Part shown: positions 1,864 to 64,000 of the stretch, one piece after another | Layout: each line of letters begins with the position of its first letter | Position numbering within the stretch: the stretch's first letter is position 1 | NCBI RefSeq assembly: GCF_042242105.1 | Contig: NC_092012.1 | Coordinates: forward strand, 9,702,970 to 9,766,969 | Direction of reading: 5' to 3' | Source: Pempheris klunzingeri | Lineage: Eukaryota > Chordata > Actinopteri > Acropomatiformes > Pempheridae | Length of the DNA: 64,000 nucleotides | Position numbers and translations under genes: made by a program | The notes under the pieces: generated by a model | What the model saw: the letters and a program-made list of their open reading frames with translations, nothing else | Database searches by the model: none | Told to the model about the DNA's origin: nothing

Positions 1864-33354
<31,491 letters not shown>

Positions 33355-33775: not shown

Positions 33776-34740
33776 GTTCCACATTTGATGAGCCCGATGA
33801 TGATTTTTTAATGTTTTATTTCAGTCCGTTTTGTTCCCTTAACTTATAGCATGGGTTATTTATAGTTTTAATCTTTACAGTTTATATTACTCTGCCACCG
33901 TTACAACACAACCACAAATAGACTTCATCATAATAATGATAATAATAATGACAATAATGATAACAATGATAATAATAATAATAATAATAATAATGATAAT
34001 AGTAATGATAATAATAATAATAATAAGAAACATGCTTGCCTAGTTTAACAATGGTAAGTTACATCCAAATGAAACGTTAACTCGTCTGCTTGACCTGACA
34101 CTGGCTTTTCATGCAGCGACATGACGTTCAAATAATGTATTTTATAGTTCAAACATATTTTAACGCGTACTTATGATCCTCGTCAAATAGTAATCTAAGC
34201 CCTGAATTAACTCTATGTAGACCTGCATGCAGAAACTGTGCATATCCACCTACTTCGTGTGTACAAAGTAACTTGATAGCCAACATTAATCGCCCAGTTG
34301 CATATCTTTACTATTTTACTCTTGTTTAGAAATTACAGTTTGACTTGTATAAAGACACTATATGTTGTTGTTGTTCATATATTTATATACATATCCAAAT
34401 GCATCTACTTGTAGCCTATGTTCACTTAGTATTTAGTCCTTGTATTTATCTGCATGTATATTTCTATCAAATTCGCTGTATGTGTACACGTTAATTGCAA
34501 AATAAAACTGATTCGGATTTTCTAAAAACAGCATTATTAGAATAAATAAATTATATACCATATCATTTGCACCAAAGCCTTTTTTTAAACCCTTAAATCC
34601 AAAAATGAACATTGTTTTTAAATTCATTGAACATGAATCCAGTGCATGTTGTCGTCGCCTCCCACTGTGAACACCAGGGGGCGACGACGTGACTTAAAGT
34701 TCCTCCTTCGTCCTGAAGGGGGCGGAAGTGAGTGGTAGCC
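33776..34740. promoter_or_regulatory. Head-to-head intergenic region between tanc1 and the snoRNA host gene
   Basis: About 1 kb separates the minus-strand tanc1 start from the plus-strand non-coding gene. It contains an AT-rich microsatellite and, close to the plus-strand start, a GC-rich patch with GGGGGCGGAAGTGAG near 34719-34733 (Sp1-like and ETS-like). It may act as a bidirectional promoter; this is inferred from layout. Confidence 0.4.
33929..34026. repeat. (AAT)n/(GATAAT)n microsatellite
   Basis: An interrupted run of ATAATA, TGATAA and related triplets of about 98 bp. Confidence 0.9.
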
Positions 34741-34780
34741 TATTTAAAGTGGAGCCTCCAACGTTTTCGGTCCTTTTCTC
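34741..34780 (+). promoter_or_regulatory. TATA-like box and 5'TOP start
   Basis: TATTTAAA at 34741-34748 is followed about 32 bp later by C at 34773 and the pyrimidine run CTTTTCTC. A cap-site C followed by 5-15 pyrimidines is the 5' terminal oligopyrimidine (TOP) signature of translation-machinery genes, including TPT1, and of snoRNA host genes. Confidence 0.6.
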
Positions 34781-35959
34781 ACCGACTGCTCTCTCCTCAA
34801 GTCACAGAATAAGTGCATAATGCAGAACCACTTCAGCTGTTCACTAATCTCCACCGCCATGGACCACTGTAAGTATATTCTGCCCCTCACAGTGAAGATA
34901 AACAGCAGTAACTGTTCAGTTTTGGTGTAAAGTCTCTTCAGTGTGGACACGTGTAAGAGAGCTGATGCCATTTTGTATCGAGTCAGTGTCGGATACCTTT
35001 TAAAGATCCCAGTGCAGCGTTATCCCACGTAACAACAAGTAAACTTAGTGAGGTGATTTAGCCAAACTAATGTCCAGTATCTTCAGGAGTTTCGGGCAAC
35101 AGGAACCATTTAAAAAGGGACTTGAAATTTACTACAGCACCGGAAATGCCTCACTGCTAGCTAGCTAGCTCCGTAGACTGTGCGTGGTTAATGCTAATTT
35201 GAGTTTTACAACATTAGTTAACACTAAATGTATTAATCTCATGGTTGCGTAGAGTTAACAGCGAAACTATAAAATGGTCTTGCTGATTTCAATTGGTTGA
35301 AATTGTGTTGTTGGCTTACACAGATAGTTGTACTGTAGGAACTTTACCCGGCTGTGACTAAGCCTTAAAGTTAAGGCGGCATCAATCAAAAGCTATAACA
35401 TCAGGGATTAATTTATGATTTTTAAAGTAAATCATTCGTACAATCCACTGCATCAGAAGCTGTTTCGTCCTTATGATTAAAGAAATACTCTATACAAACC
35501 AATACTTATGAAATAACATAGCACATGACGTCATCACAGTTCAAAGACAGAGGTGTATCAGTTTGTCTTACGTGAATAATTTAGACAAGCTTCATACAGT
35601 TAACAGGAGTTTTCATTATAAAAAGGTACTGCTCCATAAAAGTGCACTGTGCTTGAAATTTACATAAAATATCTGCTTTTAGTATATGCAGTTCTTATAA
35701 ATGACTCTAATGTATTTTTTTTTTCTCTCCTTATTGGATCATGTTCAGATGTTGGACCCCTGTTTGAGCCGGCTGAAGGATGACTGAGCTGCAGTAAACC
35801 GTCCCAGAGATGTGCTGTTACAACACTACAGTCTGCCATGGCAGTGTAATAAAGCGGGTCTGAGAGGACCTCTACCAGCTGCATCAAGTCACGAGTGAAA
35901 ACGTATGTAGACATGCTAACTCTGTGGTGACTCGCTGCCTTTCCACATGGTCACAAGCT

Positions 35960-36094
35960 GCATCTTTGACAGCCTGGGCTCTCTGCTGTGAGAGATCCCG
36001 GGTTTTAAGATTTCAGATGCAATATCAAATGTCCCTGCGCTTTCTGTCCGCCTCTTTTTCTATGGCGTCTCAGATTGAATTGGGGAGGATAAAT
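35960..36094 (+). ncRNA. snora31: H/ACA snoRNA, SNORA31-like copy 1
   Basis: 135 nt in intron 2 of the host gene. The 5' hairpin has outer stem GCATCT/AGATGC, inner stem CCTGGG/CCCGGG and apical CTCTC/GAGAG. The H box is ATATCA (36022-36027). The 3' hairpin has lower stem TCCCT/GGGGA, pocket arms GCGCTT and TTGAAT, and apical CGCC/GGCG. The pocket is exactly 14 nt from an ATA at 36089-36091, which would serve as an ACA-box variant. The 3' pocket pairs with 28S rRNA AUUCAA-UG-AAGCGC, whose U is the SNORA31 target (human U3713). The 5' pocket does not fit the 18S target of SNORA31. Confidence 0.8.
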
Positions 36095-36387
36095 CAAAAA
36101 TACAGTCTATTGACATGTTGCTCCCATTAAGAACTGCTTCAGCTTTAATCATTCGTTTCTGCCCATGAAACCAATCTATCTCAGCATATACCACAGATGG
36201 GTAAAGCGCCTGAATGTTTTGCCCTCCCTCCCCTTTCCAGGCTCAAGGCTCCAGCTTGAAGAGATTAACCCGGAGAGAAGTTACTGCAGGAGCTGGAACC
36301 TGTTGAGCTGTCTTAGAATTGTTGCTTTGCAGGTGAGCACTTTCTAATGCACTTAAAACTATTTTTAATCTGGGTTGACTTCAATTT

Positions 36388-36518
36388 GCATCCACTGATA
36401 GACCTGAAGCAGGCTGCATTGGCTTCTGGGTTTGCATAGAGATGCTAAACTGAGCCTTCCTCGCGCTTTCTGACTGCTAAATATAATAGCAACCCAGATT
36501 GAATGGAGGAATACATGA
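36388..36518 (+). ncRNA. snora31: H/ACA snoRNA, SNORA31-like copy 2
   Basis: 131 nt in intron 3. The 5' hairpin has outer stem GCATC/GATGC and an H-box variant AAACTG (36447-36452). The 3' hairpin has lower stem TTCCTC/GAGGAA, pocket arms GCGCTT and TTGAAT, apical TGCTA/TAGCA, and a canonical ACA (36513-36515) 14 nt after the pocket and 3 nt from the end. The 3' pocket predicts 28S U3713 (human numbering). The 5' pocket arms CTGATA and TGCAT fit 18S GUGCA-UU-UAUCAG, the other SNORA31 site (U218), again 14 nt from box H. Both guides match, so the identity is well supported. rRNA sequences are from memory. Confidence 0.87.
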
Positions 36519-37205
36519 GCTTTGTTGGGCATGGTCCAAGGGCAGATTCACAGTGCTGCACACTGCTCTTGCATTCAGGTCAAACGTTTACAGAATCTGT
36601 ACATCAAACTACCAATTTGGTCCCTGGACATGTCTGGTCAAAACATTGTATATTTGGACATGCCAATATGTGGCCTATAAAAGCATTTTTCCATTTACTT
36701 GCTGTGTCTTAAGATCTGAAGGCACAACTGCTCATTGCCATTTATTGTCTTTATGCAGGTAACAAGACACTGCAATCACCTGATGGGTATTGGATCCATG
36801 GAATCTGTCAGCAGGATTTCTCTTGCATACCTAGGCATTGAAGCAATCTGAACCAGCATGCAATGCGTCAAACTTGACACCATTTGTTTTTGTTTTTTTT
36901 GAGAAATAAAGCTTTAACTTTCTGAAGCATGGTTGTGAAATCAAACTTGATGCGTAGTGTTGTACTCTGTATGTTGTGATGAACAGAAGCAAACGATCTT
37001 CAGTTACTGCTGTCATACTAGCCATTGACCGAAATGCATTCTTGGAGTGGAATACCAATATTAGAGTAGCCTGGATTACAACTTAAAAGTGCTATTAAGA
37101 CCATTTTTGAATAAGTTGTGTACAGAAATTTGGTTCATCTCATTCTTTAAATGCAATATTTTGCTACTGCTCCAATAAAGTACCATGTTTTTTCCTAATC
37201 AAACA

Positions 37206-37844: not shown

Positions 37845-40800
37845 CTATTCGTCAGTCTTTTCTTCTCCTTGGTAATGTCTGTATTCTGGCTTGAGCTCCC
37901 AGGTGTTTTTATGTGTTCCCTTCACATTGTAGATGCCAATATCACGCAAGATTTCCTTCAAGTAAATCTAGAAGAGGAGAGAGGCCAAATGTGAGAAAAT
38001 ATTAATATATTGTCATTTTTCTGAGTGAAGCATCACTAAAATAACTCTATATAAGCATCAATTCTTGAAAAGATAAAGCTACACCAAATAGTATTGTTTG
38101 AAATCAGTAGAGCAAAGTGGTCTAAACCCAGCCCTCGTGTTGCCCTGTAATCTTACCACAGGCTGCTTGGTGATATCCACCAGGTCTTTGATGTTGTAGT
38201 ACTGGTGCTTCTCGAAAGCAGAAAACAACATGTCCAACACCTGCTGCTTGTCAGCTCTCGCTCTCTTGCCCTCTTCCTTCTTTTTCCTCTCATACTCCAG
38301 CTGCAGCAAAAAGTAAACAGGCAGCGGTCAGGTACCACATAATATCAGTGGATTTGCATGTCTTGACTAATGAAACTGGACACTCCAGTGTGGGATTTAT
38401 TTCTTACGTTGTAAGTATGGTTGGCCACAGGTTTGTAGTTGTTGGTGACGGGATTCTGCAGCTGTTGTGACAGCCTGACTGGCTTGGAGGACTCTTCAAT
38501 TTGTAACCTGTTTAACAACAAGAATTACTTTATTTTCCAAGTACAATACATGACATACATTCTAACTCTGCAATTAATACTGGTGCTTGCCTATGTGACT
38601 ATAGCATCTTTAAAACTGGAGAGATTCAACCATTGAATCTTTAATTTTTCAAATATGAAAAGTGTTATACTGTTTAAATACACGGGGGTTTCTTTTCTTT
38701 TTTTTAATATGATTTTGAAAATACCCACCTCTTCAGCTTCATATAGCTTTCACTAACAGCAGGTCTGCACTCTGCTCTCTGCACCACCACTCCCTCCAAG
38801 GCTATTTTATCTGGAAGAGATGAGAGTTAATTAAAACTTCAACAGGAATTGGAAGTCCATATGTCCTAAAGCACTTTTAGTGCGTGTTTACTTCATAAGT
38901 AGGGGAAGGTGAGCGGTTGCATGTGTGCAGGAGGAGACATGAAAGAAGACACGACTGATGAGTTTAGTGAAAAAAACAATACACTCCAGAAACAGAATTG
39001 GCTTTTGATAGTGGCATGAATCTAGCTCAGGCCGGAGTCTCCTAAAGTTGAAATAAAGATCAGATCAGATAGCAATCAAGGGTCAGTTTCAGAAACTCAA
39101 ATGAAAAAAAGACAAATCTTCTGAATAAAGTTCTTTTTCTCCTCTATAAACACATAAAAACAGCTTCTATTTCTATTGGAATTTTCCAAACGGCTTGTCT
39201 CATATCCACAACTGCTTTATTAGTTTCACCATTTAAAGAAAACTATGTGAATACACATATTGGGGTTAAATTCTATGAAAAAAGGAGGAAAAAGAACTCA
39301 ATTCAACCCCACATCATTGAGAGCACCACTTTTTCACATCAAAAAGTCTCTACATTAGTTTTGAAGGAAGCTTGGTAAATCTGCAACTGCCATGTACGTA
39401 TAACACTTTGGGCAGTCAGATCTTCAAATCTCTTTGCCAAAGCGATGTCACAACTGGAATTACAACCATCACCACAAGCAGATAGCTGCTGAAGCGCAGT
39501 GTCGACCATTCTGACCACAGACTCATTTTCATCCTCCAGTCAAGATGATACAAACTGAGTGCAGAAGCTCCATATGGCAAACCTGGGTGCTACATGAGCA
39601 CAATGTGTCTAAAGTTTTTATACCAATACATGCATCGTCCAAAGCATGTATGTGTGTTACTATTGTGATGCTACAAAACGCCATTCATTCATAAAAATAA
39701 TAGACACTCGGGGTGTCTGATTCCTAGTGGTGCAGCTTTGTCACTCACTGGCGAAACAGAGGACTCACCTGGACCTGCCCCTGCCCCCGAACCTGAGCTG
39801 CTGCAATCAGATCTCTCTTCTGACTGGCCTACAGGAAGGGAGGGAGGGATGGTAAACATGAAAATACAGGGGGTTGGAAGACGGAGGGAGGAGGGGATCG
39901 AACAGCAAGAACCACACCCAGGGTTTAGTCGCATACGAAAACGTGTGATCACACAGAGCCTCTCGGTGTAATCTCTGATGAGTACACACACGTGCATGTG
40001 AGCGAAGCAAGCATGCCCTTACGTCAAGCGAGCACAGATACCCCTTCTCGCCACAAATGCACATCCTAAACAGGGCTGCACATTAGTGAAACATGAAACA
40101 AAGCACATTTTCATGTGGCAAAAAAAAAAAAAAAAAAAAAAAAGTCTCCAGTTTAAAAGTAAATGGGTAACAGTGCAGCAGTAATTACCTCTCTTATCTT
40201 TTGTCTTTCCTGTTAATACACTGAATTTTATACATTGTGCTGCCTTCTTGGCCAGGTCTCCATTGAAAAAGAAGTTTCATATCGTACTTATTAAATGTGA
40301 TTGAAAAAAACAGGACTGCGCAGCCCTAAATCACACACATACACACAAAAGATGGTGTCCCAAAGTAAGCACAGCAGCACAAGCTCACCAGCACCCACAG
40401 CAAAAAACACCTACATTACATCCAGAGGGCAGACAAGGCTAGTGAAGTTCAAACCAAACCAAAGAAACACATGCACAAATTAAATCAACGACAAATTCAG
40501 TGATGATTTGTGTTGATATTGCTCTACTCTATGTTAAATGAATCCAATTAGGACCATTGTGCCTGATCAATGCAGTCCAGTCTACTAAGAGGTGATTGGG
40601 AGTGGACGGAAAAGGTCAAACTTACAGGTGATCAAACACAAATTTCCAACAGACCAGCTCTCTTTTATTTTCCATTGAGTGTTCACGTATCCACTATGAT
40701 TCCTTACATATGCTGTTAGGACTGTGTACAACCTCACACTCTGTTGAGAGTTCACAGCACACACAGACAAGCAAGGCAGGCAGGGGAAACACTGTGCATG

Positions 40801-43414: not shown

Positions 43415-43737
43415 TTTGGTTGATTAGAGTGCCCTTTACTTTCGACCAATCAGAGTGCTTCTTTCTTTTGGCCAATCAGAGAGCCCCTTACATTTAACCA
43501 ATCAGAGCCCCTTACTTTCGACCAATCAGAGTGCTTCTTTTTTTCGGCCATTCAGAGCACTTATTTCTTTTGGCCAATCAGAGAGCCCCTTACTTTTCAC
43601 CTATCAGATTGCTTCTTTCTTTCGGCTAATCAGAGTGCGTCTTTCTTCCAGCCAATGTTTCTTTCTTTTGGCCAATCAGAGAGCCCCTCACTTTCGACCA
43701 ATCAGAGAGTCCCTTACTTTTGGCCAATCAGAGAAAG
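43415..43737. repeat. CCAAT-box minisatellite, about 13 units
   Basis: Units of about 25 bp of the form GRCCAATCAGAGWGC plus a C/T-rich spacer recur from 43415 to 43737. CCAATCAGAG is exact in eight units (starting near 43446, 43472, 43498, 43522, 43574, 43672, 43699, 43724) and decayed in the others. The chance ORF through it is only the repeat translated. Each CCAAT is a consensus NF-Y site. Confidence 0.9.
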
Positions 43738-43845
43738 AGAGAAAAAGATAGTAGCGACACGAAGACTTTGCGGAATGCGGAAGTATTGTATCGTCACGGG
43801 CGAGCGATAGTTCCAATCAGGTAGATCCGATCGGCAGACAGTGAC

Positions 43846-45636: not shown

Positions 45637-47351
45637 TTACAGGAACATTCGGTCCTTGCTGTGGGAGAACCGTGTGTTCAGCTCCTGAGATTTCTTCAGC
45701 AGCCGCTGCTTCTGCGCGTCATCAAAGCGATTCACCTGCAGGTCTGCGTCCCGATCGAACGGTCTCCTCTCCACCGGTATATTAGCCGTCTCCTTTGCTT
45801 TTTCCTTCATCGTCTTTGTGTGCAAAGTCATTAGAGACTCAGCACGTTTAGACTCCTAATAACAGGGAGTGGGTGAGAACATTTTAGTCTTGACTTTAAT
45901 GCAAACACTTGTAAAATGCATTTATTCTGGGATTAATTGTATGTAGGGACATGTAGGAAAAAAGAACGATGAAGTAATACCACTCACATTATACTTGGAC
46001 ACTTTCTCTGCCATTTCCATGTCCTTCTGGGAGACTTGTGGGACGTCATCTTTCTCCACCTCACCCTTCTTCTTTTTCTCAATGCGTTCCTATTGTTCAA
46101 GAACAGACCGGTGAAATGTAGGGAAGTAATACATAGGCTACAATGCATTTAATAAAAACGGTCAGATATTTCTGATCTACCCTCATCTTGCGCTCCCTGT
46201 CTGCCGGTGTATCCGTCCAAATGGAGCGATCCTTGTTCTCCGGGCCGGACTTCTTCTTGAAAGTTCGAGCACCCAAGCCAATGTGCTGCAGCTCTGGTGG
46301 GAGCTCTGTCATCCATGTTTCTCTGGTCACCACTTCAGGAGCGTCCTGTTTGCACAGAAATACACACAAGAGCAAATTCACACAGCAGAGGAGGTTAACG
46401 TGTTATTCTGTTTACATTTTTTTCCTATTCAGGGGTCAATCTGCAAGCGTTTAACTGAGGATTTACTGTGTTACACAATGCAGATTAAACTCACTTCTCC
46501 TGTCAGCTTCTCCTTCATCCTCTTTGCCCTGCGCTCAAAGTCCAGAGCCACAGAGTCTTGAACAGGCCCCTTAAACGGCACGGGCCCGATCACATCCTCA
46601 TCCTCTCCCTCGCTGCTGGAGGGCTCAGCCCGGTAGCCTGGAGGTAGGGCAGGACCCGGGAAACCCTCTTCGTCTTCACCATCATTATTATCATCATCAT
46701 CATCATCTTTTTCATATGCTGCTCTGCGAAACCCAGGAGGCAAAGCTGGTCCCAGCACAGGAGGCCTGAGGGGACACTATGAAGTTACAGCTTCCGTAAT
46801 TAACTATTTATCCACATCTAACTGTTTACACATAAAATCCAGTGGAATATAATGTAGATTTAGTTTTCTCACCTTTCTGGTGACATCTGTTGCTTCTTAA
46901 ACCCTGGAGGCAGAGCTGGTCCAAAGAAACCATCATCTTCTTCCACTTGGTTCTTAGTGTTCTCCGCCCTGCTCAGAAGACACATGTCAGTGTTTGGTTT
47001 AACCAGACATTTATTTTCGTAGCTTCCAGTCCATTAATGAACTAACTTTTCTGCTTCCTTGTGTCTTGTTTTGGCTCTTTTGGCCGCCACCTCCTCTTCA
47101 CTCTCATCCGAGGAGCTCGACGGTTCTCCCCGTTTATAACCGGGAGGCAAAGCGGGACCAGAGACTGACACAGAGGGAGGGAGGAAAAAAAACATTAACT
47201 ATCAACCGTTAACGGATCTACACAACATTTAATCCATACTGAGGAAAGATATTTGAATCTTACATCCTTCCCCATTGTCGTCGTCTTCATCGTTCTCCTC
47301 CTTTCTGAACATCGGGGGTAAAGCAGGTCCGATCGGTTTATCAGACGACAT
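45637..47351 (-). CDS. gpalpp1: gpalpp1: GPALPP motifs-containing protein 1, complete
   Basis: A vertebrate protein of poorly known function named for its repeated GPALPP motif; likely nuclear given its very acidic and basic runs. Seven exons: 47351-47264, 47164-47047, 46968-46873, 46765-46495, 46345-46181, 46089-45988, 45855-45637. They total 1,059 nt, 352 aa plus stop (human about 340). Five motifs are visible: IGPALPPMF (exon 1), SGPALPPGYK (exon 2), FGPALPPGFK (exon 3), and LGPALPPGFR and PGPALPPGYR (exon 4). The C-terminal half has the conserved RETWMTELPPELQHIGLGAR and ends SKDRMFL. An Asp/Asn/Glu run after GFRRAAYEK is coded by an ATC microsatellite near 46681-46709. The gene lies head-to-head with ercc3 and next to gtf2f2, as in human for the latter. 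Confidence 0.95.
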
Positions 47352-48978: not shown

Positions 48979-56073
<7,095 letters not shown>

Positions 56074-58110: not shown

Positions 58111-61100
58111 ATGGCAATCCTGAATAATTTTACGGCAGCATGCTGGAAGAACCTTCAAGGCGACCGGCTAAATAAGCAGCTGTTCTTCATTTTACGCGCT
58201 TTACACAAGTCGGCAGCCAGCGAGGCTTTTGGGATCTCCACGGCTGGAGAAGAAGCCATGCCTGAGAGATTGATCAAACCTGCGAACGTCGGCGAGAAAA
58301 CCACAATCAAGACCCTGAAGGAGATGCCTGGACCGAGCACCTTATCCAACTTGATCGAGTTCTTCTGGAGAGACGGCTTCAGTAGAATTCATGAAATTCA
58401 GGTAATGGTGTCCACATATGTCACTTTCAGTGAATTATCTAGTTTTGTTTGACATGTGAAATAATGTCTTTGTGTTTCCCACCAATGACACCCAGCCTGC
58501 GTATTCGCAGCGTCAGCCAAATTTACCACCTATGCGTAAAAGACAGTTGCGTAAAAGCGCACCAGGAGTTTGGCCGCCGGTCAGCTTTCCACTCCAAGGC
58601 ACGAGTTTTGTGATGGTATTCAAGATGAGTTCAGTGTAGCAGTGACAGCGTTTTCTATATTGCAGCAGATCGTTTGATTGTAAAACGTTTAGTCGCAGTT
58701 TGTAGAGAAAATGTTTAAAACAAAAAAAAAATATGGAATGTGCAAATCAGCCAAACGTAGGTGTCAACCAATGTGACAAAACACTTGTGTAAATATCTTA
58801 TGAGAAATCCTTTGTTAAGTGTCCTGTGCTGTAATCAGCAGATCAAGACGAGTGATTGCTGATGATAACTGAGTCTAACTTGTGTTCCAACTATGATAAC
58901 ACTAATTGCATAATAAGCCATATTTTGTAATGAAAATGTAATGTCAAGTGAATACACCCCCTCTCTCTTTTATTAAATCCCATCATTTTTATAGTCATGT
59001 TTTTATTAATTGCATTAAAGTTGTTCATCTGAATATTATTTTTTCCAAACCAACTGTCATGTAAAAGTGTCAAATGCGTTCATGTTATCATAGCTATTTC
59101 TTTTGTACTTTCATTTGAGGTAGTGTCTCAATTCTATGTGACAATTGCATTGGAAGTGACAGAGATTAGATATGTCTGTGAAGATTCTCAGTCATCCAGG
59201 TCATAGTTATTCCTTAGGAGTTGAGCTTCAACAAGTCCTGTTGTCTTTTGCTCAACTCCTAAGGAAGAGATTAGATAGGTGCTTATTGAAAATTTGGTTT
59301 TTATATCTCTAAGGAAACAGCATTATTACAGGCTGGCTCTACTGGAGACACCACTGGCATGGTAGACATACAACTCTATTCTGCTGAAATGTACTCCATT
59401 AAAATTATCTGATGTTTTTTGTTATATTATCTATAATACATGCACACTAAAGTGCTGATTGAACATAGATTTAACCGAAAAGCTAGTATGTAAGTATACC
59501 ACATTACATTACGTTTTGATTTTATTAGTAAAATTAGTCCAGGATTTTCTGCTAATTTTTCTGAAATTTATGTGACTACTAATGTATTGGTGTCACTTTT
59601 GTTTTACAGATGGAGCACAGGAAGAAGTATGGTAAAATTTTTAAATCCCGTTTTGGGCCTCAGCTGGTGGTGTCGGTGGCGGACCGTGACCTGGTGGCTG
59701 AGGTGCTGAGGGCCGAATGTGTGGCTCCTCAGAGAGCTAACATGGAGTCCTGGAAGGAGTACAGAGACATGAGAGGCCGCTCCACCGGCCTAATCTCAGC
59801 GTGAGTCCCGACAAGGACCTCCTGAAATAAATGAGTTTGGGGTCGACTGGATAATCACTTCACTTTCCATATGTGTAGATGGGCACAGCACAAAAGTTCA
59901 GCATTACCTCACGTCTGGTGTACATTACCCTTTACTCAATAGTCTGCTTTTCTATCTAGGAGCTAAGACATGATGGCATCAATACTTACAATCAGTCTTC
60001 ACAGAAGTAAAAGCATTTCCAAAAATTCACCATGTCCCTTGCGTCCTGTTTTCCAGCGAGGGAGAAGATTGGCTGAAGATGCGGAGCGTGCTCAGACAGC
60101 TCATCATGCGCCCCCGTGACGTGGCGGTCTTCTCTGACGACGTGAACAAAGTGGTAGACGACCTGATCAAAAGAGTTTGTATTCTGCGCACCCAGGAGTC
60201 TGACGGAGCAACTGTCCACAATGTGAATGACCTCTTCTTCAAATATGCCATGGAAGGTTGGTAAAGATCGTACAAAGGTTGTTTGGAAAGGAAATGAAAA
60301 TTGGGCAGGCTTGAAAAGGATAACGCAGGTGGACTATAGATGTGGAGGGAAAGGAGATTGCTGAGGCTATCAGAGGGGACAAACGGTTCACAGGAAGAGG
60401 TAATAGAAATAGAGAAAATGCACTAGAAGAAAATAAAATTAAGATTTGTCACGTGCTTAATAAATCCTGATGTTCCATCATGATTAAAAATGTTGTCTCC
60501 TGTTTCCATGCCTTTTGACCTTACAGGTGTGGCAGCCATTTTGTACGAGTGCCGACTAGGCTGTTTGAAAACTGAGATTCCCCAGGAAACCCAAGACTAC
60601 ATCAATGCACTGCACCTCATGTTTAGCTCCTTCAAGACAACCATGTATGCCGGAGCGATCCCCAAGTGGCTCCGACCCATCATCCCCAAACCATGGGAGG
60701 AGTTCTGTCACTCCTGGGATGGCCTCTTCAAATTCAGTAAGTGGTTTACAACTTGTAGGTTTTGACAACAAGAGACATATAAATACTTTTTAGTATACCT
60801 TTACGCTCAGTGAACTGTCTGCCTGCAGTAACTAGAGTACTTTCATATTAAAAGGGTATTCCAGCAATTTAGTACTGCACTTTCAAAAATCCTTCCCTTG
60901 GGGCAGAGAGAGAGATATATGAGAGAATCTACCACTTTAGTTACATGTTTCCCTGAATATCCCCAGTCTAATGAGTTGAAGTCTTGTAAAAAGATCATTA
61001 TATGCACGAATGTTATATAATGCTTTCCTCTATGATACTTTTAAAAATACAAAACAGTAAAGCTTAAGTGTATTTGCAAATGTTTTGAGGATTAATTGCC

Positions 61101-63919
61101 CGGCATCAATAGAAAGGAATGTTGATTTGCATATAAATCTCTTCAGTTGTACCATGTGGGAGTGTGGGGTCCCTCTGTTACATAACCTGTTCTCTCCTCT
61201 TTCCTTTCCTTCACTACCCTCCCTCACCTCCCCATCCCTCCTCACCTACCCCCCCCATTTCCATTCATCCCACCTTCTCTGTGTCTGTCTGGTCCCAGGC
61301 GTTATTCACGTTGATAAGAGGCTCTCAAAGATCAAGGCCCAGCTGGAGCAGGGAGAGGAGGTGAAGGGGGGACTGCTCACACACATGCTCATTACCAAGG
61401 AGCTGAACATGGAGGAGATCTACGCCAACCTAACGGAGATGCTACTGGCTGGGGTTGACACGGTGTGTGTCTGTGTTTATACAGAAGTGTTAAAGGACAA
61501 CTGCAGAGAGGGGTTTGAGGAGTGCAGAGATGCAGTAAGCGTGGCTGTAGCAGGAGGTGGAGGGGTTGGGAGTTGTACGTGTGTGTGTGTGTGTGTGTTT
61601 GTCAGTGTTGAGTTTCAAGGGTTGGGTTTCTGGCGCCACATCCATGCCTGTGTAGCTGTGCCAGCGTCAGGTCAGAGCAATGAATCGGGGGGGTTACACA
61701 GTATCCCACTGACAAACTTGCTCTCACTCAGATTTAGTTTCTTGTCATTTGTCTCTACACAGGGGGGCTTTTGTCTTTTTCTCCTCCTCTGCCAGGCGTC
61801 TGTGTTGTGTTCATATGTTTCCACATTAGAACATAATTGAATAGCGCTTGCAAATAATTAAGACTGTTGATTTAATGCCACCGTTGTATCATTTTTGGGG
61901 GAGTTTTATACCAATAGAAAACACTGAAAGGGAGAAGGGGCATGATGTACAACAAAGACCTAGTGTCAGATTTAGGCCCGGAGTGTTTTTTTTGGTTGGC
62001 GCCTCAGAGTCATCAGATGTCCCCACCCGACACTATTCAGGCAGAAAATTAAAGATGTTCAGAAAACATACTTGTATTTGAACCCAATAATATTTCAGAG
62101 ACAAAGAAAATCAGTTTCATACACACTAACAATGATTTCTTGTATAGATTTTGCACTTCTCTGGGACATGACTGTGCATTTGCATCTGTGTGCATACTGT
62201 GTGCACATGTGCACAGTTACTGCCTAATTAGTTTGGGGTACTGTCAGATTAATGAGAGTTATGGGTGTAGAGTGTTTTGTTCTGAGCTGGGGGCCACGGG
62301 ATAAAAGGGTGTGTGTTTTTGTTGAACTTGTTGCAACGGCCACGTCCTGGTGGGGGGTGGACTTAGCTGAGCCATTACCTGACCCCGTGGTGCATTTGCC
62401 TTTACTCAGCACACACAAGACCTGTCAAGACACGTTAGCCACAGCCAGAGTTATAGCACAGACTGGGCAGAGGTGAGATGGAGGGGGGGAATAAAGGGGG
62501 TGGGCCTGAGGAAGAGGGACGCTGTCGTGAAACAGCAAAGATTGGGGAACTGGCGTCATGGGGTGGCGGGAGGAAGAGTTGTGTGAACGATGGATGTTAG
62601 AAAATGAGGAGATGTGTGGGAGAGGCCTAAGCCGTTCAGGGCTGTGCTTGGATGAGCTTTTGTCATATGATTCCTCTTTGGCTTTGTCTGAGGTGTTGCC
62701 AGCATCTGTCACAGCTGGGGTTGATTAGGTTCAAGTTGGTTAGATGGGGAGAGGGTGATGACGGAGCGGGAGGGAGAATCTGAAGAAGAGTAGGGGGAAG
62801 AGGGAGGTGGAGGACGGAACAGCGAGAGGGATGGCGGGGCTTATACAAGGGTAGAGACTCTTTTGCTCATTAGTTAGGCCACTGAGAGATGCCGACCGTA
62901 GACTGACCTCTGGGGTCTATTCAGTGTGATGTTAGTAAAAACAAGGCTGCCCTTCCGCCACCCATGCCTTTCGTGACATATACACGGGTATTAAAGTGAG
63001 GATGCCGGATGGAAAGAGACAGACAGGATGCCAGGAACTTAAGTAACATTGGGGGTTTGGGTAACAAGGCATACAATGCAGTCAATAAAGACGTGCTGAG
63101 AATACAGGAAAGGTGTCACCCATTTCCCTATCATTTGCTCATTTGCTTGCATCAGTGAAATGAAAATGCCAGTGGCGTGTGAGTCAGAAAAAGGAAGAAT
63201 TGAGATATGTGAGATAAGTGAAATAAGTACGTAGGCTGGCTGCAATGAAGGAAAGAGGAAATGAAAATGATCAGGGTGTGTCTGAGGACAGAGGGAAAGC
63301 ACATAGGTGCACAATTTAAAAAGTATAGTGCAGTAGAACTGCTTTGAAATTCCATTGATTAGGATTATTTTCAATTCTCATTGCATGTGAACTGCATGCT
63401 GTAATGCTATGTGTGGCAGACCTGAGTGCACTTTAATTAAGGTACAGTTGGATAAGAATGAATGAGAGATAAAGGGCTGAGGGTGCAGCTGGTGGAGAGG
63501 ACTTGAGTGTCTGCTCAGCACGTGGAATTGGCCCCCTCTCCGTCAAAGCCCCTCACTGTTTCCCAACACTTGCGCAACATCATAGAAACCCTCATAGCAG
63601 CTTGCATTGCAGTCAAACTTGTTACAGAACATGAGGAGCAAAGGAAACATCTCCACACAGATTAAATTAAAGAGTTAGTGAACTATTCTAATGTACTACA
63701 AATTCAAAGAGGAATGTATGTGTTTTTTTAATACCCTTTATCATTGTTCTAGACATCCTTCACCCTTTCATGGGCCAGCTACCTGTTAGCGCGGCACCCT
63801 CATGTACAACAGCAAATCTTTACTGAAGTGATGAGGACACTGGGACCTGGAGGAGTTGCCACAGCTGACGATGTCCCTCGCCTGCCCCTCATCAGAGGGC
63901 TGGTCAAAGAGACACTCAG
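58111..63919 (+). CDS. cyp27c1: cyp27c1: retinol 3,4-desaturase P450, first six exons (cut by window end)
   Basis: CYP27C1 is a mitochondrial-type P450 that converts vitamin A1 to A2 by 3,4-desaturation of retinol. This red-shifts visual pigments in fish and amphibians and is controlled by thyroid hormone. Exons: 58111-58401, 59610-59800, 60057-60256, 60527-60736, 61299-61462, 63753-63919, with consistent phases (407 codons so far). I chose ATG 58111 (A at -3, G at +4); the frame continues upstream but with no earlier ATG. The N-terminus is basic, as for mitochondrial import. The I-helix motif is AGVDT|TSFTLSWAS and the K-helix ExxR is KETLR at the end of exon 6. The haem-binding Cys loop lies beyond the window. 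The ercc3 linkage supports CYP27C1 over CYP27A/B. Confidence 0.93.
59210..59266. repeat. Perfect 17-bp inverted repeat (foldback)
   Basis: TTCCTTAGGAGTTGAGC (59210-59226) and its exact reverse complement GCTCAACTCCTAAGGAA (59250-59266) enclose a 23-nt loop. It lies in cyp27c1 intron 1. The sequence just before it (GATTCTCAGTCATCCAGGTC) resembles dispersed fish repeat sequence, so a MITE fragment is likely. Confidence 0.7.
61463..63752 (+). other. cyp27c1: cyp27c1 intron 5
   Basis: 2.3 kb between the two halves of the I-helix codons. It contains a (GT)n tract near 61578-61598 and G-rich stretches near 62470-62830. No exon was found inside. Confidence 0.7.
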
Positions 63920-64000
63920 GTGCAGATTGCATGTACTTTTGTACTCTTTGCAGCTTTTTCCTCCGTAGCTGTCGATGTCTTATGTTGTTATGGTCTGCTC

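Follow-up and report, generated by a model that had tools for sequence, protein, structure and literature searches.

A probable tpt1 duplicate without TCTP that carries two SNORA31 copies in its introns in the fish Pempheris klunzingeri

The four-exon gene and its SNORA31 copies

The window analyzed here, a stretch of 64,000 nt, corresponds to C1:9702970-9766969 in the 646 Mb genome of the percomorph fish Pempheris klunzingeri (C1 and C10 denote contigs). Near its middle is a gene modeled with four exons on the plus strand, at positions 34773-36921, both outer ends being predicted, that has SNORA31 H/ACA snoRNAs in two of its introns and gtf2f2 as its downstream neighbor (Table 1). A TATA-like sequence, TATTTAAA, is found at position 34741, and the sequence CTTTTCTC is present at the predicted start site 32 nt downstream; this agrees with the TOP-like start that an earlier note on this DNA had described. 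At the other end of the gene, an AATAAA at position 36905 lies within exon 4. A simple repeat rich in TAA/TGA is present upstream of the gene, at 33930-34030.

Table 1. Positions of features at the SNORA31 locus, numbered from the first nucleotide of the window
Feature	Position	Strand	Basis
Core promoter, TATA-like TATTTAAA and TOP-like pyrimidine start	34741-34780	+	Sequence reading; start at 34773 predicted
Exon 1, holding the first ATG of a 27-codon frame that extends into exon 2	34773-34868	+	Gene model
Exon 2, with the stop codon of the first frame	35749-35902	+	Gene model
SNORA31 copy 1, intron 2	35958-36094	+	Rfam RF00322, 49.4 bits
Exon 3, remnant of tpt1 exon 4	36241-36332	+	TCTP profile match, splice sites
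SNORA31 copy 2, intron 3	36386-36518	+	Rfam RF00322, 68.2 bits
Exon 4, possible remnant of tpt1 exon 5 (suggestive only)	36759-36921	+	PDG position, AATAAA
gtf2f2, last four matched exons, tail-to-tail with the four-exon gene	37848-38827	-	TFIIF_beta; C10 match

The splice sites of the model were ranked among those of the window, the donors with a scoring matrix and the acceptors by their pyrimidine content. The exon 3 donor is fourth among 3727 GT sites, and the exon 3 acceptor is fifth among 2019 YAG sites. The other donors of the model rank 144 and 285, and the other acceptors 424 and 240; because of these lower ranks, exons 1, 2 and 4 are less certain.

A SNORA31 cargo had been proposed from the sequence alone, and Rfam bears this out with two copies, both of which exceed the gathering score of 40. 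Both are situated wholly inside predicted introns (35903-36240, intron 2, and 36333-36758, intron 3), and a two-hairpin fold is predicted for each, with z-scores of -2.84 and -1.73. Copy 1 displays the H box ATATCA and has ATA where ACA is expected; copy 2 displays an ACA box near its 3′ end and has a hinge without ANANNA. When the two are compared, they align over the 3′ hairpin, with a match at 37 of 55 positions. A covariance search of the whole genome reports these two SNORA31 copies alone; 42 of its 60612 first-look candidates were scored, and thus a weak additional copy is possible.

The departure of one box from the consensus in each copy, and the lower score of copy 1, are what a plain decaying pseudogene might show, in which case the locus would be functionless and the SNORA31 copies relics. 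However two SNORA31 sequences above the gathering score are present although the exons around them are almost unrecognizable, and the splice sites are still good, those of exon 3 being near the best in the window. In addition, SNORA31 is reported nowhere else in the genome, and to read both copies as relics would leave the fish without SNORA31. That the locus is a functionless pseudogene is therefore considered very unlikely.

The spliced transcript, as modeled, has a length of 505 nt. No readable TCTP frame was found in it, as the earlier note had maintained, and its longest frame that begins with an ATG has 27 codons. This frame is opened by the first ATG, and a second ATG in the same frame has a good context, ACCGCCATGG. 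A transcript that still yields a short peptide of importance, for instance from this very frame, has therefore been weighed. The frame is short, however, and is not that of TCTP, and its stop codon lies 119 nt upstream of the next exon junction, with one further junction after that. From the distance between the stop codon and the junction, the spliced RNA would likely be a target of nonsense-mediated decay. A functional peptide is regarded as extremely improbable.

The coding tpt1 and the duplicated block

The earlier note expected a coding tpt1 elsewhere in the genome, and one is located on C10. A genome search with PF00838 gives three TCTP matches, all on the minus strand of C10 and within 12697049-12698489. 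The gene consists of five coding exons, from 12699812 to 12697034, with AG/GT borders, and their joined translation is letter for letter the recorded Pempheris TCTP (P0121; 100% identity over 170 residues), which has a score of 217.3 bits with the TCTP Pfam model. In a tree of 40 TCTPs this protein has a long branch, 0.36, compared with an end-branch median of 0.15. The only coding copy may thus have undergone rapid evolution.

No SNORA31 accompanies the C10 gene. Rfam models detect nothing at gathering score over the 70 kb of C10:12665001-12735000, and SNORA31 was not found at E values up to 10 in C10:12695001-12700500, the span that holds all five coding exons. Rfam also gave four matches below threshold along C10 tpt1, of which the best was GlsR5 (21 bits; cut-off, 100); they were set aside as chance. 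Thus an intact TCTP is encoded at one place in the genome and SNORA31 at another.

The 3′ end of SNORA31 copy 2 (window 36490-36517) resembles coding exon 4 of C10 tpt1 (C10:12698063-12698168) at 23 of 28 bases, with an E value of 0.001 under lenient scoring. This resemblance is probably also due to chance, as the snoRNA sequence agrees with the Rfam consensus here and the corresponding residues of C10 look lineage-specific.

The four gtf2f2 exons listed in Table 1, one of which has a translated peptide that carries the Pfam TFIIF_beta domain, match C10:12688109-12694190 on the plus strand, and one exon is 83% identical over 48 residues between the two contigs. The C10 match is directed towards tpt1, and its end at 12694190 lies some 2.8 kb short of the tpt1 coding end. 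In the window, gtf2f2 is directed towards the four-exon gene, the end of which is about 0.9 kb away. On both contigs gtf2f2 is thus tail-to-tail with its neighbor, tpt1 in one case and the four-exon gene in the other, and the two regions are therefore two copies of one block. The proposal that the four-exon gene occupies the place and orientation of tpt1 relative to gtf2f2 is upheld by this comparison. A long run of A is found at window positions 40120-40143, inside the gtf2f2 side.

A kctd4 gene with a KCTD4_C domain is about 26 kb from C10 tpt1, and the window yielded no kctd4. Conversely, the window has a gene that by eye is gpalpp1-like (minus strand, 46498-47330), and none was found in the 70 kb of C10. 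In human 13q14, GTF2F2, KCTD4, GPALPP1 and TPT1 are together, with GTF2F2 and TPT1 convergent. Further genes of the window, also named by eye, are a TANC-like gene on the minus strand at 1864-18954, in which one exon has Pfam ankyrin repeats, and an ercc3-like gene (49458-54545) and a cyp27c1-like gene (59583-63968), both on the plus strand. Pieces of the gpalpp1-like, ercc3-like and cyp27c1-like genes gave no Pfam match. Repetitive stretches at window 43424-43810 and at C10:12666033-12666473 both have an NQSASF..PIR-like motif, and by eye look like a dispersed minisatellite.

Two distinct full-length TCTPs encoded on contigs of different length are found in each of three early-branching teleosts, Denticeps clupeoides (P0013 and P0052), Scleropages formosus (P0025 and P0083) and Albula goreensis (P0020 and P0028), among the best 120 of 1635 and the best 120 of 573 matches. 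Thus both duplicates may still be coding in these fish, and their presence is consistent with an early teleost duplication. Two TCTP entries of odd lengths are also among the matches listed for each of Oryzias latipes and Oreochromis niloticus, and these look like variants of one gene. Duplicate clades are not separated in the tree of 40 TCTPs. The tpt1 duplication probably stems from the teleost genome duplication, a dating that is based on the duplicated block and the three teleosts with two TCTPs rather than on a dated tree.

Remnants of TCTP in the exons

A frameshift-aware TCTP profile was built from 107 of the 120 listed TCTPs, i.e., those of 160-175 residues, and pieces of the window and of 70 kb of C10 that start with AG were used as controls. 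Exon 3 has a score of 28.9 with the part of the profile that corresponds to tpt1 exon 4, and this was reached by none of 17435 control pieces, although the pieces overlap and these counts, like those that follow, are thus not independent trials. When repeated with exact boundaries, no piece out of 17410 was as good at three penalty settings and one was as good at the loosest of the four. With the same part of the profile alone, the 2158-nt region as a whole was equaled by 0 of 358 controls.

The earlier note had pointed to an LEE-x-NPER motif in exon 3, and the profile match consists of LEEINPER, which is read one base out of frame; none of the 17410 control pieces has a reading as good. The related forms LEETNPER, LEESNPER and LEENNPER are found in 10 of the 152 TCTPs that have a recognized stretch, out of 175 examined. 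In the native intron phase of tpt1, exon 3 opens with three codons that translate as L-K-A, where the TCTP of Amia has I-K-A, and 15 of the 17410 pieces do as well. The L-K-A and LEEINPER readings are separated by one base of frame.

The PDG that had been seen in the last exon is indeed present in exon 4, at an offset of 20 nt, i.e., 4 nt from its native TCTP place at 24. A P-D/E-G within 4 nt of the native place is found in 27 of 17422 control pieces, with a tolerance that was chosen after the offset was known. However the best profile match of exon 4, which 719 of 17415 pieces equal, falls away from the PDG. The pairing of exons 3 and 4 with tpt1 exons 4 and 5, also put forward by the earlier note, thus stands with respect to order and to offsets that are near the native ones, but the assignment of exon 4 as a remnant of tpt1 exon 5 is suggestive only.

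Broader comparisons gave weaker or negative results. The whole 2158-nt region compared with the whole TCTP profile is not significant, being equaled by 63 of 358 controls, and the best of four random exons is as good in 86 of 3000 cases. At the DNA level, exon 3 shows a weak similarity to C10 exon 4 (101 of 1500 as good), and for exon 4 and C10 exon 5 the count is 328 of 1500. No TCTP remnant was detected in exons 1 and 2 by profile or by DNA comparison; the query for C10 exon 2 in the latter included 5 intron bases, and one of its alignments was driven by gaps. The likeness of the promoter to that of C10 tpt1 is likewise not significant, with 264 and 644 of 5000 as good under two scorings. 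A score of 58 with loose gaps, beaten by 0 of 1500 and 0 of 5000, suggested that exon 2 might have been copied from the C10 promoter and exon 1; this was rejected, as with stricter gaps 966 of 5000 were as good.

Exons 1 and 2 are thus unlike anything in tpt1, and this, together with the whole-profile scan, would suit a different history, whereby the tpt1 duplicate was wholly deleted and an unrelated noncoding gene with an acquired SNORA31 now lies beside gtf2f2, in the same spot and in the same orientation. Such a replacement appears quite unlikely, in that L-K-A and LEEINPER occur in order within exon 3 and are followed by PDG in the next exon, the position of the four-exon gene is that of tpt1 at the other copy, and the cargo is the same as that of human TPT1. 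The homology of the exons to tpt1, as read from sequence, is based on position, phase and order together and not on any single score.

Proposed division of protein and snoRNA between duplicates

In the human genome TPT1 is listed as the host of SNORA31, the assigned targets of which are 18S U218 and 28S U3713 (table in PMC3766210), and a second copy, SNORA31B, is placed at 13q14.13 in the same direction as TPT1 (PMC6028756). From this human arrangement, an ancestral tpt1 with SNORA31, perhaps in two copies, is plausible.

Very probably, then, the four-exon gene is a duplicate of the ancestral tpt1 that lost its protein, kept its promoter, its splicing and both snoRNAs, and became a noncoding host of SNORA31; the C10 duplicate would be the one that kept the protein. 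The C10 copy, with its own convergent gtf2f2 and without SNORA31, is what one would predict if the locus is a fossil duplicate, as the earlier note had read it. It is likely, with somewhat less confidence, that the split followed the teleost duplication, such that one duplicate was left with TCTP only and the other with SNORA31 only, and that SNORA31, in percomorphs or more widely, comes solely from the stripped copy.

The events may have been as follows. A tpt1 gene that coded for TCTP and bore SNORA31 in its introns was duplicated; in one copy the protein would have been lost, with promoter, splicing and both snoRNAs retained, and in the copy now on C10 the protein would have been kept and SNORA31 lost. 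From the features of the sequence we infer that RNA polymerase II would transcribe the four-exon gene from the TOP-type promoter, that introns 2 and 3 would be spliced out, and that the two SNORA31 RNAs would be trimmed from them, in line with the production of vertebrate intronic snoRNAs from host pre-mRNA as described in PMC3349704. The SNORA31 RNAs would join H/ACA proteins and guide rRNA pseudouridylation. The spliced exons, with their early stop codon, would probably be destroyed by nonsense-mediated decay, to which host transcripts are often subject according to a statement in PMC3753356.

The locus resembles human TPT1 in its gtf2f2 neighbor, its convergent orientation, its SNORA31 cargo, its exon remnants and its TOP-like start; it differs in having fewer exons and no TCTP frame. 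Noncoding snoRNA hosts with a TOP start, and long noncoding RNAs derived from dead protein genes, are kinds already known. The hosts GAS5 and U50HG/SNHG5 likewise combine a TOP-like start with short exons that, once spliced, give no useful frame; they bear snoRNAs in their introns, and their spliced RNA is likely to be degraded. In PMC3753356 U50HG is characterized as a 5′TOP noncoding snoRNA host, and a fish gas5 is mentioned in PMC5024134.

For long noncoding RNAs of the second kind, Xist is reportedly derived from Lnx3. In the fossils of protein genes treated in PMC5577775, as here, a former protein gene is kept as a noncoding one, with remnants of its coding exons. Those cases, as the source presents them, were taken from losses of an ancestral gene, and it calls duplication followed by pseudogenization much harder to quantify. 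In contrast to them, the function kept at the Pempheris locus would be that of the snoRNA in the introns, and a duplicate still encodes the protein.

Like subfunctionalization, the proposed history divides two jobs of one ancestor between duplicates, with an ancestral state that is taken from the human gene. Unlike the usual form, the jobs would be those of a protein and of an RNA that lies within the introns of its gene, instead of two expression domains or two protein functions. The parting of protein and snoRNA between two duplicates looks like the added feature here, and no description of such a partition between tpt1 duplicates was found in the open-access literature, as judged from titles, best matches and passages.

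The origins of snoRNA hosts are hard to trace, since their exons evolve fast and the history is erased. Here, in contrast to GAS5 and U50HG/SNHG5, it is possible to name the parent gene and to read part of an exon, and an intact duplicate free of SNORA31 is found in the same genome. The locus offers a model, open to testing, of how a snoRNA host gene can arise and of how duplicates may divide a protein and an RNA. If the proposed history is true, subfunctionalization would here have taken place between a protein and the RNA in its introns, and the locus would illustrate the birth of at least one noncoding snoRNA host. In the Pempheris klunzingeri genome SNORA31 is uncoupled from TCTP. In human both come from one gene; a fish in which the genes are separate would therefore allow their roles to be tested apart.
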